A DNA stretch of 12,304 nucleotides from an uncultured Planctomycetaceae bacterium (GTDB taxonomy: Bacteria; Planctomycetota; Planctomycetia; Pirellulales; Pirellulaceae). The notes below the pieces were generated by a model that saw nothing but the letters and a program-made list of their open reading frames with translations, was not told the origin of the DNA and did not search any database. Shown in pieces: positions 2,929 to 12,304 of this stretch (position 1 is the stretch's first letter; every line of letters begins with the position of its first letter). Position numbers and translations under genes: made by a program. The DNA lies in contig CAIYOB010001225.1 of NCBI GenBank assembly GCA_903927685.1, positions 1-12,304 of the forward strand, given 5' to 3'.

Positions 2929-2934
2929 CCGTCC

Positions 2935-2998
2935 GTGGGATAGGCTTCCAGCCTGTCGATATCCGGAGAAGACATGACAGGCTGGAAGCCTATCCCAC
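2935..2998. repeat. Interspersed palindrome, copy 2
   Basis: Perfect 23-bp inverted repeat (2935-2957 and 2976-2998) with an 18-base loop. Its arms are identical to copy 1 at 1214-1277, and the loop differs at only 3 of 18 positions. It begins 6 bases after the stop at 2928 and ends one base before the stop of the minus-strand relic at 3000, so it sits between convergent reading frames. That is a typical REP position, where it could act as a bidirectional terminator or mRNA stabiliser. Confidence 0.9.
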
Positions 2999-2999
2999 T

Positions 3000-3221
3000 T
3001 CAATCCCGCTCCAGGCGTTTCACGGCGGTCAGGGCCAGCGGGGCGAGGCCGGCCGGCGGTTCGGGGTGGCGGAATTCCCGCAGGCGGAGCAAGTCGACGT
3101 TGTCCGCCATGAGCACCGGCCGGTGATCCGGCTCGCGCAGCGTGAGCGATACTCGCTCCAGCGTCAAGTCGTGTACGCCGCGAACGAAGAAGCCCCAGGC
3201 GGGCAGCTTGTTGTCGTAAGC
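3000..3221 (-). pseudogene. C-terminal relic of a beta-helix / GH28-like protein
   Basis: Read on the minus strand, this segment encodes roughly 73 residues ending in a TGA at 3002-3000. It has no start codon and is too short for a gene. Residues such as DNKLPAWGFFVRGVHDLTLE, then VSLTLREPDHRPVLMADNVD and a tail AVKRLERD, resemble the last strands of secreted right-handed beta-helix (pectate lyase / polygalacturonase-like) proteins of planctomycetes. The frame stays open upstream to a TGA at 3281-3279, but residues beyond about 3221 (VEYAFCETLVSSH) do not look like that family. The 5' part has therefore been lost or replaced. Codon third positions are still GC-rich, suggesting recent decay. 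The family assignment is inferred from pattern only. Confidence 0.45.
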
Positions 3222-7252: not shown

Positions 7253-10204
7253 ATGAAAGCCTCGATGAATCACGGCCGCAAGTCATATCAGTCCTCGAAT
7301 TCGTGGCCATGTCGCGCTGCGGCGTTGGCCGGCTGCTTGCTGGTACAGGCTGGGATCGCTTGGGCCGCAGAAGGCGAGCGGATGATGCTCGAAGTGCGGC
7401 AGCCGTTGTACCGTGATTCGATATTTGCGACGCAAACGACGCAGCCGATCGCGGTGCGGGCGGTGGTGAGCGAGACACTGCGCGCTCAGACGGTTGAAGT
7501 GCGCGGACGCCTGCTCGATGCTCAGGGCCGCGAACTGGCGGTCTCGAAGCCGGGGCTGACACCGGCCGAGGAAGTGCAGTTCGATGCCCTGGCGTTGCCC
7601 GCGGGAACGTACTCGGTCGAAGTGCGGGCCCTTGGCGCGGGGGGCCAAGAATTAGCGGCGGCCAGCGCGGTCATTCGTAAGCTGCCGCCGTCGCCGGGCA
7701 GCGAGGTTCGCGTCGACGAGCATCGCAATATCGTCATCGACGGCAAACCGTCCGTGCAGATCGGTTGGTACGGGGCAGTGCGGCTGGACGATCCGCGGCC
7801 GGACGTCCTGGCCCTGCAGAACATCCAGACGGCGGTCGTGGTGAACTACCCCGACAAATCGCCGGTGACGAGACTGTTCCGCGAGCATCGGATGCGGACG
7901 ATGGTGAATGTGGAGCCGGCCCGGCTGCTGTACGCATTCGACTTGTGGAAGCAGCCCGGCCATCCCGTGCCGACGGAACACACGAAGCTGTCGGCCCCCA
8001 GCAACGAGTGCCGCGAGCTGCTGCGAAAGATGGTCGAATTACTGAAGGACGAGCCGGGCCTGTTCGGCTGGTACATCGCCGACGAGCCGGAGATCAACAA
8101 CTTCCGAGCGGATTACCTGGAAGCCTATTACCGCACGCTGCGCGAGTTGGACCCGTATCACCCGGTCGTCGTGACGAACGATTCGCTGGAAGGCATCGAG
8201 AAGTTCGGCTATCGTTGCTGTGACATCCTTTCGCCGGACCCCTACGGTGACAAACCAAGTTATGTGCCGAGTTTCCTGGCGAAGGCGAACAGCGTGCTGC
8301 GACGCGGCCAGGGATTGATGCTGACGCCGTGGCACGCCGCGCACCACACGCACTTCACGCCCGAGTACGGCAGCGCCCCGCCGTTTTCGTACCGCGTGAT
8401 GCGCGGGCAGTACCTGGCCGCGCTGGCGGCCGGCGGACGCGGGTTCGCGGGGTATGCCAGCGATTTCTTCTTGCCCGAACCGCGGCTGCGGATCGGACTG
8501 CCGCACCTGTGGCGGGAAGTGCGGTTCCTGGAGACGTTTCTCAGCCAACACGCCGGCCTGTCGCCACAGCCGTCGGGAATGCTGGCCACAATTGGCCGCG
8601 CAGACGGGCAGATTGCAGTCATCGTGATGAACCCGACCGCGACCAGGCAGCAGGTCAAGATCGAGCATCCCGCGCTGACGATGCCGAGACTCGCCGTCGT
8701 CAGCGAAGGGCGCGAGGTGGCGGTCGCGGGGGGCTCGTTCGGCGACGAAGTTTCGCCCGGCGAGGCTTGTGTCTATTCGACCGATCCACGCGGTTTGACG
8801 TTGCCTACCGTGATGCAGATCGAAGCGGAGATTGCGAAGCTCGAACGGGACTCGGCCAGGCCCGGCAATCTGCTGCACGCCAGCCGCGGGGTGAAGGCGC
8901 GGGCCTCTCAAGGCACGACGCCCTGGTTCGCTCAGATCTTCTACTACGCGATCAACGGGATCACGGACGACGAAGGCTGGCACGTGACCCACGCCGACTT
9001 GCCGCAGTGGATCGAGTTCGCATTGCCCGCGGCCCAGCCGATCGGCCGCGTGGTCCTCCACACGCCGAACCTGCGCGATTATGACTTGCAGTTCCGCGGC
9101 GCCGACGGCTCGGTCCAGCAGGCGGAGGTGCGCGGCAACACGCTCGACGTGGCCGAGCACGTGCTGGCCCAGCCCGTCACGACGTTGAAGCTGCGAGTTG
9201 TGGCTCGGGCCGTGCGCGAGAACGCGAATCCGCCTCGCGTGATGGTCCGCGAAATCGAGGCGTACGGGATGGAGCAGGCTTCCCAGCCTGCTGTAGCGGA
9301 GGCGGGCCGGCAGGCTGGGAAGCCCATCCCACGGCTGAAGCTGGCGAGCATCGACGCGCCGCGTGAGCCGGCTGCCGAGCCCGTGACGGTGGCCGCGGCG
9401 GCGCCGCCGCTTTGGCGCGACGATTTCTCTGCGTTCAAGCACAAGCCCAAGCACTACGAAGGCGACGCGGACGCCTGGGTGCTCCATCCCGCGGATTTCG
9501 CCGCGAAGTACGATCCCCAGGGCAAACGGCTCCTGTGTACGGCGACCAGTGCCGCCGGCTATGCGTCGATGGGCCGCCTGCTGCCGTACTCGCCGGAACA
9601 CCGGTTCTTCCAATTCTCGGTCCCGCAGATCCAGGGCGAAGGCTACCAATGGCTGAACGTCAGCTTCGGGGACCCGTCCGGCAAAGCGACGGCCCGCCCG
9701 GCCGTGCAGACCATCAGGCCCGGCCGGTACACGGCTGACGCGCACGCCTTGCACGAGGTTTTTCGCTCACCCGAACAGCGTCAGGTGCTGCTGAACATCT
9801 ACGTGATGAAGGGCATCGAGTATGCGTTCACGGACGTGAGCCTCGCCGCGCAGCCAACCGATGGACTGACTGTGACGATGGCCGACGGCTCGCCGGTCCC
9901 GCGAACGCTGAAGACGGGCGACGAACTGCGTTTCCGGCTGTTCCTGCAGCAGCCGGCGACCGATGCGGTCGTCGAACTGCTACGCGACTCCTGGTACGAA
10001 CCGGTCCGGATCAACGGCGAGCCGTACGTGCAACTACTCAAGGCCGGCAAAGACAAAGACGGCCGCTTATGGTCCTCGACGATTCGCCTGGGCCCCAAGA
10101 CCGACAAGTTCAAAGTCACGGGCTACCCCGTCCTGTTCCGAGCGGCCATCAGCGGCGGCGCGATCCAGGAGACGTTGAGCACGCTGCTGGTGGATTTCGA
10201 GTAG
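7253..10204 (+). CDS. Large secreted multidomain glycosidase-like protein with discoidin (F5/8 type C-like) domain
   Basis: The 983-residue protein has a signal peptide with a long basic N-region (core AAALAGCLLVQAGIAWA, residues 22-38). Approximate domains: beta-sandwich 45-142; TIM barrel 155-435, with FGWYIADEPE whose E278 is the likely acid/base, as in GH2/GH5-like barrels, and LTPWHAAHH at 357-365; a small beta-sandwich 440-515; F5/8 type C-like discoidin 535-672 (LLHASRGVKARAS to REIEAYG); a repeat-derived linker 673-695; an unassigned beta-rich domain 720-870 opening WRDDFSAF; and a last beta-sandwich 871-983. It probably acts outside the cytoplasm on a polysaccharide. ATG 7253 has TGGAG nine bases upstream; ATG 7265 is an alternative. 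It lies 38 bp after the beta-helix gene. Its TAG is followed after 2 bp by the amputated GxxExxY tail. Confidence 0.75.
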   Translation: MKASMNHGRKSYQSSNSWPCRAAALAGCLLVQAGIAWAAEGERMMLEVRQPLYRDSIFATQTTQPIAVRAVVSETLRAQTVEVRGRLLDAQGRELAVSKPGLTPAEEVQFDALALPAGTYSVEVRALGAGGQELAAASAVIRKLPPSPGSEVRVDEHRNIVIDGKPSVQIGWYGAVRLDDPRPDVLALQNIQTAVVVNYPDKSPVTRLFREHRMRTMVNVEPARLLYAFDLWKQPGHPVPTEHTKLSAPSNECRELLRKMVELLKDEPGLFGWYIADEPEINNFRADYLEAYYRTLRELDPYHPVVVTNDSLEGIEKFGYRCCDILSPDPYGDKPSYVPSFLAKANSVLRRGQGLMLTPWHAAHHTHFTPEYGSAPPFSYRVMRGQYLAALAAGGRGFAGYASDFFLPEPRLRIGLPHLWREVRFLETFLSQHAGLSPQPSGMLATIGRADGQIAVIVMNPTATRQQVKIEHPALTMPRLAVVSEGREVAVAGGSFGDEVSPGEACVYSTDPRGLTLPTVMQIEAEIAKLERDSARPGNLLHASRGVKARASQGTTPWFAQIFYYAINGITDDEGWHVTHADLPQWIEFALPAAQPIGRVVLHTPNLRDYDLQFRGADGSVQQAEVRGNTLDVAEHVLAQPVTTLKLRVVARAVRENANPPRVMVREIEAYGMEQASQPAVAEAGRQAGKPIPRLKLASIDAPREPAAEPVTVAAAAPPLWRDDFSAFKHKPKHYEGDADAWVLHPADFAAKYDPQGKRLLCTATSAAGYASMGRLLPYSPEHRFFQFSVPQIQGEGYQWLNVSFGDPSGKATARPAVQTIRPGRYTADAHALHEVFRSPEQRQVLLNIYVMKGIEYAFTDVSLAAQPTDGLTVTMADGSPVPRTLKTGDELRFRLFLQQPATDAVVELLRDSWYEPVRINGEPYVQLLKAGKDKDGRLWSSTIRLGPKTDKFKVTGYPVLFRAAISGGAIQETLSTLLVDFE
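9266..9331. repeat. Diverged palindrome copy absorbed in frame into the 983-aa CDS
   Basis: Left core 9278-9291 (GCTTCCCAGCCTGC) and right core 9310-9323 (GCAGGCTGGGAAGC) are exact reverse complements, with an 18-base loop. GGGATGG precedes the left arm and CCATCCCA follows the right arm, matching the ends of the GGGATAGG-type family elsewhere in the window. It encodes EQASQPAVAEAGRQAGKPIP, a low-complexity linker exactly between the discoidin-like domain and the next domain, and keeps the frame open. Confidence 0.75.
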
Positions 10205-10206
10205 CC

Positions 10207-10239
10207 GGTAAGGGTGGCATCCGACGCGTAACCAATTGA
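10207..10239 (+). pseudogene. Amputated 3' end of a second GxxExxY gene
   Basis: Ten codons plus TGA encode GKGGIRRVTN, against GKGGIRRVTK at the end of the intact gene (11146-11178). Everything upstream of this tail has been lost. The first base of the repeat is 2 bp after the stop of the 983-residue glycosidase-like gene. The short match would be weak by itself, but the same 130-bp repeat carries on past the stop into the hairpin, so common origin is secure. Confidence 0.8.
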
Positions 10240-10255
10240 CGCTCGTCCCTCTTCC

Positions 10256-10335
10256 CTCTGAGGCCGTCCCGTCTCTGCGGTGTCCACAGAAATCAGCCGA
10301 CAGAAGAACACCGCAGAGCCGGGACGGCCTCAGAG
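10256..10335 (+). terminator. Long hairpin, possible terminator, upstream copy
   Basis: Arms 10256-10283 and 10308-10335 pair at 27 of 28 positions around a 24-base loop. The stem is GC-rich (CTCTGAGGCCGTCCCG...). There is no U-tract after it, so intrinsic termination is uncertain; mRNA end protection or a mobile-element end are alternatives. It lies 51 bp after the stop of the 983-residue gene. Confidence 0.55.
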
Positions 10336-10371
10336 CAGAGGATCCCTGCCTACAGCCAGGAGTGAACGACC

Positions 10372-11178
10372 ATGCGACGTCGAGTTGATTTTGACAACCA
10401 ATTGTCAGGGGAGGTGATCGCGGCGGCGATTGCCGTACATCGCGAGTTGGGACCTGGATTGGACGAGCCGCATTACGAAGAGGCGCTCGACCGGGAGCTT
10501 TCTCGTCGTGCCCTTCGCCATGAGGTTCAGGCGCCTCTGCCGCTGGTCTATAAGGGCGTAAGACTTGACTGCGGCTATCGCATGGATTTCTTGATCGATG
10601 GCCGGCTGATCGTCGAACTCAAATCCGTGGAAGTGGTCCACCCGGTACATGTCGCCCAGTTACTCACCTATCTTCGTATTTCAGGACGTGAACTGGGACT
10701 GCTGATCAACTTCGACGTCCCGGTCTTGAAACACGGAATCCAGCGCAAGGTGTGGAGCCACGACGAGGGGGTGGCGTCCCACGATGCACACGAACACGCT
10801 GAGTTCGACGAGCCGGGCCTGGCTGGCGATTTGGCCGCGTGTGCCTTCCAGGTGCATCGCACGCTGGGGCCGGGGCTGTTGCGCAGTGCCTACGAAGAGT
10901 GCCTATGTTACGAATTGTCCCGGCGGCATCTGCGGTTCGAGCGGAAGAAGCCGCTCGTGGTCCGCCATGCCGGCGCGGACCTGAAGACTCCCAACGAATT
11001 GCGATTGCTGGTCGAAGGCCGGTTGCCAGTCGAATGCCTGAGCGTTGCGAAGTTGTCAGATCTCCATGTCGCTCGGTTGCTGGCTCGGCTCCGTCAGCAC
11101 GGCTGGCCGGAAGGACTTCTATTCAACTTCAACGCGCCGCTGCTCGGTAAGGGTGGCATCCGACGCGTGACCAAGTGA
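10372..11178 (+). CDS. Tandem-fused GxxExxY (PDDEXK-like) protein, second half degenerate
   Basis: The 268-residue protein has two copies of the GxxExxY domain, which normally stands alone at about 120-130 residues. Copy 1 (about 10-130) has GLDEPHY (29-35, the GxxExxY motif), YRMDF with D72, and VELK with E82 and K84: a full D...ExK PDDEXK nuclease-type centre. Copy 2 (about 148-268) has GLLRSAY (168-174, Glu replaced by Arg). Its D position is R211, and E221-C-L replaces ExK, so E221 remains but Asp and Lys are gone. A DEGVASHDAHEHAEFDEPG linker joins them. The function of the family is not established; nuclease activity is inferred from the fold. AGGAG at 10358-10362 lies nine bases before the ATG. 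No signal peptide is seen, unlike its neighbours. It is flanked by 130-bp direct repeats, the downstream one containing its own 3' end. Confidence 0.85.
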   Translation: MRRRVDFDNQLSGEVIAAAIAVHRELGPGLDEPHYEEALDRELSRRALRHEVQAPLPLVYKGVRLDCGYRMDFLIDGRLIVELKSVEVVHPVHVAQLLTYLRISGRELGLLINFDVPVLKHGIQRKVWSHDEGVASHDAHEHAEFDEPGLAGDLAACAFQVHRTLGPGLLRSAYEECLCYELSRRHLRFERKKPLVVRHAGADLKTPNELRLLVEGRLPVECLSVAKLSDLHVARLLARLRQHGWPEGLLFNFNAPLLGKGGIRRVTK

Positions 11179-11274
11179 CGCTCGTCCCTCTTCCCTCTGC
11201 GGCTGTCCCGACTCTGCGGTGTTCAGAAAAATCACCCGGCAGAAGAACACCGCAGAGCCGGGACGGCCTCAGAG
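11145..11274. repeat. 130-bp direct repeat, downstream copy (GxxExxY tail plus hairpin)
   Basis: This copy holds the last ten codons and stop of the intact GxxExxY gene, the spacer GCTCGTCCCTCTTCCC (identical in both copies) and the hairpin. It is ungapped against 10206-10335. Five of the ten differences fall in the hairpin loop, three in the left arm and two in the coding tail; the right arm is identical in both copies. Confidence 0.9.
11195..11274 (+). terminator. Long hairpin, possible terminator, downstream copy
   Basis: Arms 11195-11222 and 11247-11274 form 25 Watson-Crick pairs of 28, plus one possible G-U pair, around a 24-base loop. It begins 16 bases after the stop of the GxxExxY gene and lacks a U-tract. 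The right arm equals that of the upstream copy base for base, while the left arm has changed at three positions. Confidence 0.55.
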
Positions 11275-11302: not shown

Positions 11303-12304
11303 ATGAGAACCACGCCCACGAAATGCACAGCCGGCCAGGTACACGCCAGCGGGAGCCGCGGCAAGTCATGCGTGATCATGACGCATCTGCTTGTTGCGAT
11401 CGCTTGGCTGTTGGGCAGCAGCGTGTTGGCCGCTCCCATCCGTTCGGGAAAGGACTGGGCGATCCACCCGCTGAGCACTCCGGCTGATTGGCAGGCGCTT
11501 GTGCAGCCGGAGAACCTGGCCGCGGGCAAGCGGGTGCAGGCCGAGCCGGCGCCGAACGACTGGAACACCGGCAGCGATCTGGGGCAACTCACCGACGGCG
11601 TACTGGCCGGAGCAGATGGCCGCATGTGGAGCGACAAGCGGGCGGTCGCTCAGGGCGTGGCCGCCAATCGGGCGCGCATGAAGACCAACGACATCATCCC
11701 GTGGCTGACGACCGGCTGCTACGGCGACTACGATCCCCGGCACACGCGCGACATGGTATTGGAAGCCCTGGCCAACGGCTCGCGCGGGATCACCTATTAC
11801 TGGTACGGCCATTTCGACGCCGCGCATTTCAAGTACCACGCAGAAGCGCTGGACATCGCCGCGCCCGTGGAAGACATCTTCATGGACGGCCAGCCGGTAG
11901 CCGGGCTGCAATGCAGTCACAAGCAGGTCAAGCTGTGCGGCATGGGCCTGGACGGCCAGTTGGCCGTGCTCGTGTCCAACGACGACGGCCTCGCGCCGGA
12001 CACTCCAGTCACCGTCCGCACTCCAGCGGCGGCCGGCACACCTGTGTGGGACCTGCACAGCGGTCAGCGGATCGGCCAGACCGGCCCGGACGGTTCCTTC
12101 GCCATCCCGCTGGGCCATCCCGCCGCACATCTGTACTTCGTAGGCCAGTGGGATAGGCTTCCAGCCTGTCGGCCGTGGGATAGGCATCCTGCCTGTCATC
12201 CTGTCAAATTGACGGACCTCGAAACATCGGACTTGGATGACAGGCTGGAAGCCTATCCCACGGGAGGGCCTCATGCAGACGGGCATATTTCGGCGAAGAC
12301 ACTT
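11303..12304 (+). CDS. Chimeric discoidin / glycosidase-like protein, runs off the window (partial)
   Basis: The reading frame is open for 334 codons to the last base. AAAGGA at 11289-11294 lies 8 bases before the ATG. Residues 26-44 (MTHLLVAIAWLLGSSVLAA) form a signal core; ATG 11378 is an alternative start without a good site. ENLAAGKRVQAEPAPNDW... and QLTDGV...MWSDKRAVAQ are the opening of an F5/8 type C-like domain, which stops after about 45 residues. The chain then jumps to late-barrel glycosidase sequence (SRGITYYWYGHFDAAHFKYH) and a beta-sandwich ending HLYFVG. An internal deletion near 11650 is the simplest reading. From 12148 the frame passes through a palindrome, giving WDRLPAC...DRLEAYPT, so the native stop has been lost. 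It may be a decaying gene. Confidence 0.6.
   Translation, partial: MRTTPTKCTAGQVHASGSRGKSCVIMTHLLVAIAWLLGSSVLAAPIRSGKDWAIHPLSTPADWQALVQPENLAAGKRVQAEPAPNDWNTGSDLGQLTDGVLAGADGRMWSDKRAVAQGVAANRARMKTNDIIPWLTTGCYGDYDPRHTRDMVLEALANGSRGITYYWYGHFDAAHFKYHAEALDIAAPVEDIFMDGQPVAGLQCSHKQVKLCGMGLDGQLAVLVSNDDGLAPDTPVTVRTPAAAGTPVWDLHSGQRIGQTGPDGSFAIPLGHPAAHLYFVGQWDRLPACRPWDRHPACHPVKLTDLETSDLDDRLEAYPTGGPHADGHISAKTL
12148..12261. repeat. Interspersed palindrome, composite copy 3
   Basis: Left arm 12148-12170 and right arm 12239-12261 are perfect 23-bp reverse complements, identical to copies 1 and 2. The 68-bp interior is not the usual 16-18-base loop. It holds a second, diverged left arm (12175-12197, core AGGCATCCTGCCTGTC) that has no matching right arm. 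The structure looks nested or formed by recombination between family members. It lies in frame within the 3' part of the chimeric gene. Confidence 0.85.
12273..12304 (+). CDS. Possible start of the next gene (partial)
   Basis: ATG at 12273 follows GGGAGGG at 12262-12268 (4-base spacing) directly after the palindrome. The visible codons read MQTGIFRRRH, which might open a twin-arginine signal. It is in a different frame from the chimeric gene that also runs off the end. With only ten codons visible, this is a weak call. Confidence 0.3.
   Translation, partial: MQTGIFRRRH

Follow-up and report, generated by a model that had tools for sequence, protein, structure and literature searches.

The closest described systems to the locus reported here are MITEs and small IS elements, the protein-coding intervening sequences of 23S rRNA, and the REPIN palindromes with their RAYT genes. 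MITEs and small IS elements have terminal inverted repeats and gene-less derivatives. For 23S rRNA, one report describes a Coxiella intervening sequence of 428 nt with a 28-bp inverted-repeat stem, which encodes S23p and is termed a selfish element, while the mobility of such intervening sequences is treated there as possible and left open (PMC4990558). REPIN palindromes, according to a further source, carry a GTAG or CGTC tag at one end (PMC3733652).

The GxxExxY family is very common, with at least 6268 homologues at E ≤ 0.001, and a described role for it was not found. The open-access literature, with subscription papers and preprints outside the scope of the search, gave passing mentions of GxxExxY only and no description of GxxExxY elements. 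In the accessible portions of open-access papers, TIGR04256, TIGR02436 or PF05635 appeared in the context of diversity-generating retroelements. Open-access titles and abstracts on small mobile elements in Planctomycetes did not name GxxExxY, and the accessible open-access text held nothing on the bundle or intervening-sequence protein together with inverted repeats.

Here, we describe a GxxExxY gene in a window, that is, the whole stretch of 12,304 nucleotides that was analysed, from an uncultured Planctomycetaceae bacterium. We read it as a small GxxExxY element whose 939-bp unit would have been tandemly duplicated and then partly deleted, with a nuclease that would act at its hairpins; for this account as a whole, we put the probability at roughly 0.55. 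The general layout is new to us; it pairs an unusual protein with palindromes like those of REPINs and framing like that of intervening sequences.

Direct Repeats, Hairpins and a Putative Coding Relic

The window contains two direct repeats of 130 bp on the plus strand, at 10206–10335 and 11145–11274, which are spaced 939 bp apart and identical at 120 of 130 positions (92%) by repeat search and direct count; identity is 32/34 for the coding stretch and 88/96 for the spacer with the hairpin. Each repeat comprises ten GxxExxY codons and a stop (GKGGIRRVT-N in the left copy, GKGGIRRVT-K in the right), a 16-nt spacer that is the same in both (10240–10255 in the left copy) and a stable hairpin. Hairpin 1 (10256–10335) is built of an R-type arm at 10256–10283, an apex of 24 nt and an L-type arm at 10308–10335, and hairpin 2 (11195–11274) of an R-type arm at 11195–11224, an apex of 20 nt and an L-type arm at 11245–11274. 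The folding energies of the two regions are −64.5 and −59.2 kcal/mol, with z scores of −9.2 and −7.9, and none of 200 shuffles equalled them. A reading of both hairpins as intrinsic terminators was rejected because, by eye, no T-run stands behind either of them.

The coding part of the left repeat (10207–10239, in register with 11146–11178) follows an upstream gene of 983 amino acids at 7253–10204 on the plus strand, the TAG of which lies at 10202–10204. The homologue tails that were inspected end there or within a few residues, so that the stop is native and the relic begins 2 bp past a genuine stop. The sequence-only reading of this DNA had given the spacing and identity of the repeats, their composition and the cut behind the upstream gene, and all of these hold exactly. 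It had also placed a GxxExxY gene between the repeats; the family is certain, and the description can be refined in that the gene, at 10372–11178 on the plus strand with a product of 268 amino acids, has two GxxExxY domains (PDDEXK_3 in Pfam, and TIGR04256) and is framed by an inner pair of inverted repeats. This pair lies at 10306–10335 on the left and 11195–11224 on the right and is complementary at 27 of 30 positions; the element thereby has complementary ends of about 28 bp, as 23S intervening sequences do.

A second hairpin family (GTGGGATAGGCTTCCAGCCTGTC, arms of at least 23 nt) was also seen in the window, at 1213–1280, 2934–3001 and 12143–12263 and in an ORF near 9279–9340. It also occurs within coding sequence, where the frame is kept open, and an exact 22-nt copy of it was found in none of 228 loci.

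The coding tail of the left repeat is best read as the putative relic of a second tandem unit. The best database match of the window protein, P0001, is identical to it at 267 of 268 residues, and the sole difference is the last residue, N in place of K, which is the residue encoded by the tail of the left repeat. Some full GxxExxY gene, as judged from this protein sequence, carries the last residue of the left tail, and P0001 would most simply stem from a tandem unit that is intact in some other strain or location. Since the two hairpins with their spacers differ at 8 of 96 positions and the two proteins at one residue, an allele or gene conversion could also account for it.

Hairpins provoke template switching, and a switch at the hairpin during replication might have copied the 130 bp of tail, spacer and hairpin upstream of a gene that was otherwise single. 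This agrees with the homology between the repeats, which stops with the L arm of the hairpin, and with the other two-domain loci, which have hairpins on both sides and no visible coding tail; however, it does not predict a full gene such as P0001 with the left tail's last codon, unless further conversion or an allele is added. We regard such copying as unlikely. The tail itself seems to be a chance local addition to the general layout, as by eye no repeated 3′ gene tail was seen in the 450–500 nt upstream of the five other two-domain loci. Under the tandem-duplication reading, the 939-bp unit would have been duplicated in tandem, and the first gene would then have been lost by a deletion that reached the upstream gene's stop.

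The Two-Domain GxxExxY Protein

The product of the ORF at 10372–11178 matches PF13366 at 206.6 bits (curated cut-off 22; E = 1.3e-61) and TIGR04256 at 218 bits (curated cut-off 35; E = 2.6e-65), each in two stretches, and its membership in the GxxExxY family is certain. The first domain keeps the PD-(D/E)XK residues D72, E82 and K84, and the second is without the D and the K. An alignment of 120 sequences was made of the window protein and 119 of the 120 homologues among the matches listed, with P0001 excluded because it nearly duplicates the window protein. In this alignment, 116 of 120 first domains and 2 of 120 second domains keep the full catalytic D-E-K. The protein is thus a fused domain pair with one predicted active site.

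The structure model of the window protein has a pLDDT of 90.7, and Foldseek matched it to no solved structure at E ≤ 0.001. Among the weaker matches, nuclease-like domains of Wolbachia CidB came first (7fiv, E = 0.0065), and a Cas4-like protein and lambda-type exonucleases were also present, all of which we take to belong to the PD-(D/E)XK class; as these matches are weak, no target is claimed from the fold. A sequence search of solved structures and a search of PHROGs with the protein each returned no match, and none of the families in the PADLOC models of known anti-phage defence genes was matched. No relative was found among viral contigs, in which five stretches matched one of two short patterns and none matched the other. 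A search of the phylum gave 0/392 at E ≤ 1e-40, a threshold too strict for half-length matches, since single-domain matches reach only 1.6e-38. Two-domain genes were found at E ≤ 1e-50 in none of 387 Verrucomicrobiota genomes, which says little, as no more than six candidates per genome were scored.

Matched Inverted Repeats around GxxExxY Genes

In the flanks of relatives, many GxxExxY genes have matching inverted repeats on both sides, often TTCACCNCNGAG... / ...CTCNGNGGTGAA, and the letters of these repeats differ between loci and match within a locus. With a fixed score for inverted-repeat pairs, 49 of 57 GxxExxY loci in a first sample reached the threshold of at least 13, as did 2 of 300 random segments. 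In the enlarged sample of distinct genes, from which five near contig edges were dropped, 63 of 73 reached it, versus 3 of 600 control segments, which were random, largely coding segments of the fetched loci and not gene-matched flanks (Fisher p about 1e-73, with kinship between loci ignored). The arms of the 63 framed genes have a median length of 28 nt (range 14 to 107). Moreover, the mean score of a gene's own arms was 20.0 versus 8.7 for swapped arms, the best mean of 2000 permutations being 10.6, and for 40 genes the own arm outscored every other arm of the 73.

Among new loci from further phyla, 7 of 13 (one of the 13 entered twice) reached the score; the framing is thus strong among the mainly planctomycete loci and weaker outside them. 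The usual layout is hairpin–gene–hairpin or, for most one-domain genes, inverted repeat–gene–inverted repeat, and terminal inverted repeats like those of TIR transposons and MITEs are present both in the window and family-wide. The arms were also seen to look periodic, at about 9 bp.

The most alike multi-copy GxxExxY elements within a genome were found in G509 and G511, at 81–99% identity. They adjoin integron-like sites and their spread may be cassette-driven, and for this reason they were set aside as proof of mobility. Closely similar one-domain elements at five loci (L095, L097, L099, L100 and L103) lie beside GTTCGGC/GCCGAAC-like motifs, which in our view resemble integron attC sites, and this suggests inverted-repeat elements that ride in gene cassettes.

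Whole Hairpins at Two-Domain Loci and Lone Hairpins

Six two-domain loci were available, namely the window, L079, L080, L081, L082 and L149. A hairpin was found downstream of the gene in 6/6 and upstream in 5/6 (the array of L082 counted), against a background of 24/400 segments in four two-domain loci and 15/800 in all long loci. A clean hairpin of R-end, apex and L-end on both sides, a class assigned by eye, is present at four of the six two-domain genes (the window, L079, L080 and L081) versus 3 of 68 one-domain genes (p 0.0004). The other two were rejected as clean pairs by eye, L082 being an array and L149 having an L-R hairpin on one side only. At L082, a unit of L-R hairpin and 5′ gene part stands three times in tandem, and its third copy runs into the gene itself; this layout is the mirror image of the window. 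Its two cut copies break at HRE codons, where the gene and the hairpin end are similar and not identical; a break at an exact shared word was accordingly rejected.

These numbers bear on the suspicion that all of this is structural noise, in which palindromes common in planctomycetes would by chance adjoin a gene that is itself common, and the repeat would have come from a local duplication. Palindromes are indeed not rare, with one found in the 250 nt downstream of 25 of 261 other long ORFs, but chance would hardly give the excess of framed genes (63/73 versus 3/600), the matching of arms within a locus and a downstream hairpin at every one of the two-domain genes. The reading as noise is disfavoured, and we hold it to be highly improbable.

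In addition to the gene-side copies, hairpins of the pattern CTCTGYGGTG-N6..36-CACCRCAGAG are dispersed in the genomes of carriers, with nine in G476, five in G482 (two of which frame the gene) and 16 in G484 (one of which is beside the gene); a reversed-pattern control gave 0. The lone hairpins fetched from G476 (5 of 9) and G482 (5 of 5) have arms the same or nearly the same as the gene-framing ones, and in G484 (5 of 16 fetched) the arms are mostly other than those beside its gene. Any match to the pattern was found in 9 of 135 genomes of the order. At least five copies are present in three of four carriers of two-domain genes versus 1 of 133 other genomes, a comparison (p 4e-5) that is partly circular because the pattern was derived from two-domain genes. 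The fourth carrier, G462, has no copy because its arms differ, and G395 is a counterexample, with 16 hairpins and only one-domain genes among the two GxxExxY matches that were examined in it. The sequence-only reading had tied the repeat to GxxExxY genes, and this link is partly loosened, as the hairpin type also stands alone: of 14 further hairpin loci that were fetched, 13 are without a GxxExxY gene in the fetched flanks. At three loci of G484 (L152, L158 and L164), near-identical lone hairpins were seen inside a longer repeat with outer ends of about GTGACGAGGA / TCCTCGTCAC, which is probably a MITE.

One Operon Junction in Different States

The junction between two genes named from their protein sequences, presumably for acetate kinase and an EutN-type shell protein, was compared among 61 genomes of one family, 44 of which matched; the best 30 loci were taken, and 27 of them had both genes. 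An intact GxxExxY element is present at this junction in L165 and L166 and a decayed GxxExxY gene in L183, while a four-helix-bundle gene is found in L170 and L182 by HMM and a similar gene by eye in L169. Another small ORF lies within inverted repeats in L173, a lone R-L hairpin in L175, and arm-like remnants in L174 and L194. In total, an element, relic or arm was recognised in 10 of 27 junctions and none in 17, where the gaps range from −1 to 216 bp; these 17 include L178 and L186, which have other short repeats that were left unclassified. The closest relative of the carriers L165 and L166 by EutN identity (79%), L167, has a gap of 8 bp. The place is thus occupied differently from species to species, and by two gene families. 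By eye, the ORF of L173 is membrane-protein-like and its inverted repeats are of the GxxExxY type; it is possibly a third cargo.

Four-helix-bundle genes (TIGR02436), the family to which we assume the S23p of 23S intervening sequences to belong, were found in 19 of 20 genomes. Inverted repeats with different letters flank them at 21 of 30 distinct loci, or 22 of 33 rows, in a count that used an HMM of at most 12 seeds picked by motif. In L119–L148, their inverted repeats were seen to be built of short-period units, e.g., TCAGTTGTCAGTAGTCAGT.

Such framing could also be explained by a role in RNA, in which the element would be an intervening sequence as in 23S rRNA, transcripts would bear it since RNase III would cut out its stem, and the protein would be otherwise employed. 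The size, stem and S23 ORF of the Coxiella sequence given above, the framed four-helix-bundle genes and their presence, in other genomes, at the operon junction that GxxExxY also occupies all speak for it, whereas the orientation of GxxExxY genes is only weakly tied to their neighbours (24/38 upstream and 33/42 downstream versus 156/254 in the control; p 1.0 and 0.04), so that a strong bias to co-transcription is unsupported. Moreover, no Rfam family reached its gathering score in the window, which gives no sign of a location in 23S rRNA, the ORF between the window hairpins is GxxExxY and not an S23 four-helix bundle, and lone hairpins without a gene exist. On balance, we think a role in RNA quite unlikely.

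The junction, a locus other than that of the window, also shows that the element is absent in some species, which partly answers the proposal to look for empty sites. Because GxxExxY genes of relatives have inverted repeats on either side and the element can be missing from an orthologous site, the earlier notions of gene plus hairpin as one unit and of a small GxxExxY-linked mobile element are both fair readings, the former with the amendment that the recurrent layout is hairpin–gene–hairpin and that the coding tail was seen in the window only, and the latter as far as the mobility of the element is likely. The further suggestion of an amplifying cassette is backed indirectly, by the alternative tail of P0001 and the tandem array of L082.

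Proposed Mechanism and Comparison with Known Systems

The GxxExxY element, as we picture it, would be a gene for a PD-(D/E)XK-type nuclease with the palindromes that belong to it on either side. Where element ends are placed back to back, as R-end, short apex and L-end, they would make up whole palindromic hairpins, which the fused pseudo-dimer with one working active site may nick or cut. Repair or recombination between palindromes could then copy, tandemly duplicate or remove units of gene plus hairpin, and lone hairpins might be the scars or seeds left by the copying or removal of units.

A broader and more tentative proposal, which we judge possible but short of even odds, is that GxxExxY proteins may be the mobility nucleases of a widespread, so far undescribed class of bacterial mini-elements and recognise palindromes built from the ends of their own elements. 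The two-domain form would be a nickase that spreads its own gene and gene-less hairpins, in likeness to RAYTs, which are thought to spread REPINs, and the protein-coding 23S rRNA intervening sequences would form the branch of the class that has a four-helix-bundle gene. If inverted-repeat elements have GxxExxY genes as their cargo, and perhaps as their engine, the family gains a testable function; this would also account for a repeat class that recurs in genomes of several phyla, and suggest where the 23S rRNA intervening sequences with four-helix-bundle genes came from.

Compared with known systems, the GxxExxY locus resembles REPIN/RAYT in a DNA-processing gene beside palindromes, dispersed lone palindromes and tandem clusters with flanking sequence (PMC3116915, PMC8266576). 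Lone palindromes match the gene-side ones among the copies that were fetched in G476 and G482 and mostly do not in G484, with G395 as the counterexample. Unlike REPIN/RAYT, a PD-(D/E)XK-type GxxExxY protein replaces the Y1 (HUH) transposase, and a scan of eight window ORFs found no Y1 transposase (Pfam, E ≤ 0.001) and no other known transposase. By eye, GTAG is absent from 10256–10335, and CGTC lies inside an arm and is not an end tag. Further differences are the arms of about 30 bp and the many relatives that are plain inverted repeat–gene–inverted repeat elements.

With MITEs and small IS elements, the GxxExxY elements share terminal inverted repeats and gene-less derivatives, but their arm letters change between loci and yet stay matched. 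The window gene also differs from typical TIGR04256/PF13366 proteins in having two domains, the second with a degenerate active site. As for the 23S rRNA intervening sequences, the one-domain GxxExxY form has a similar size of about 450 nt, terminal inverted repeats of about 28 bp and a single small ORF, and in the genomes examined, four-helix-bundle genes outside rRNA have similar framing. In contrast to those sequences, the cargo here is GxxExxY, the location is outside rRNA, and the repeats of the window are doubled into hairpins within a 939-bp unit. Taken together, these likenesses lead us to infer that GxxExxY elements and 23S rRNA intervening sequences may share one common architecture.
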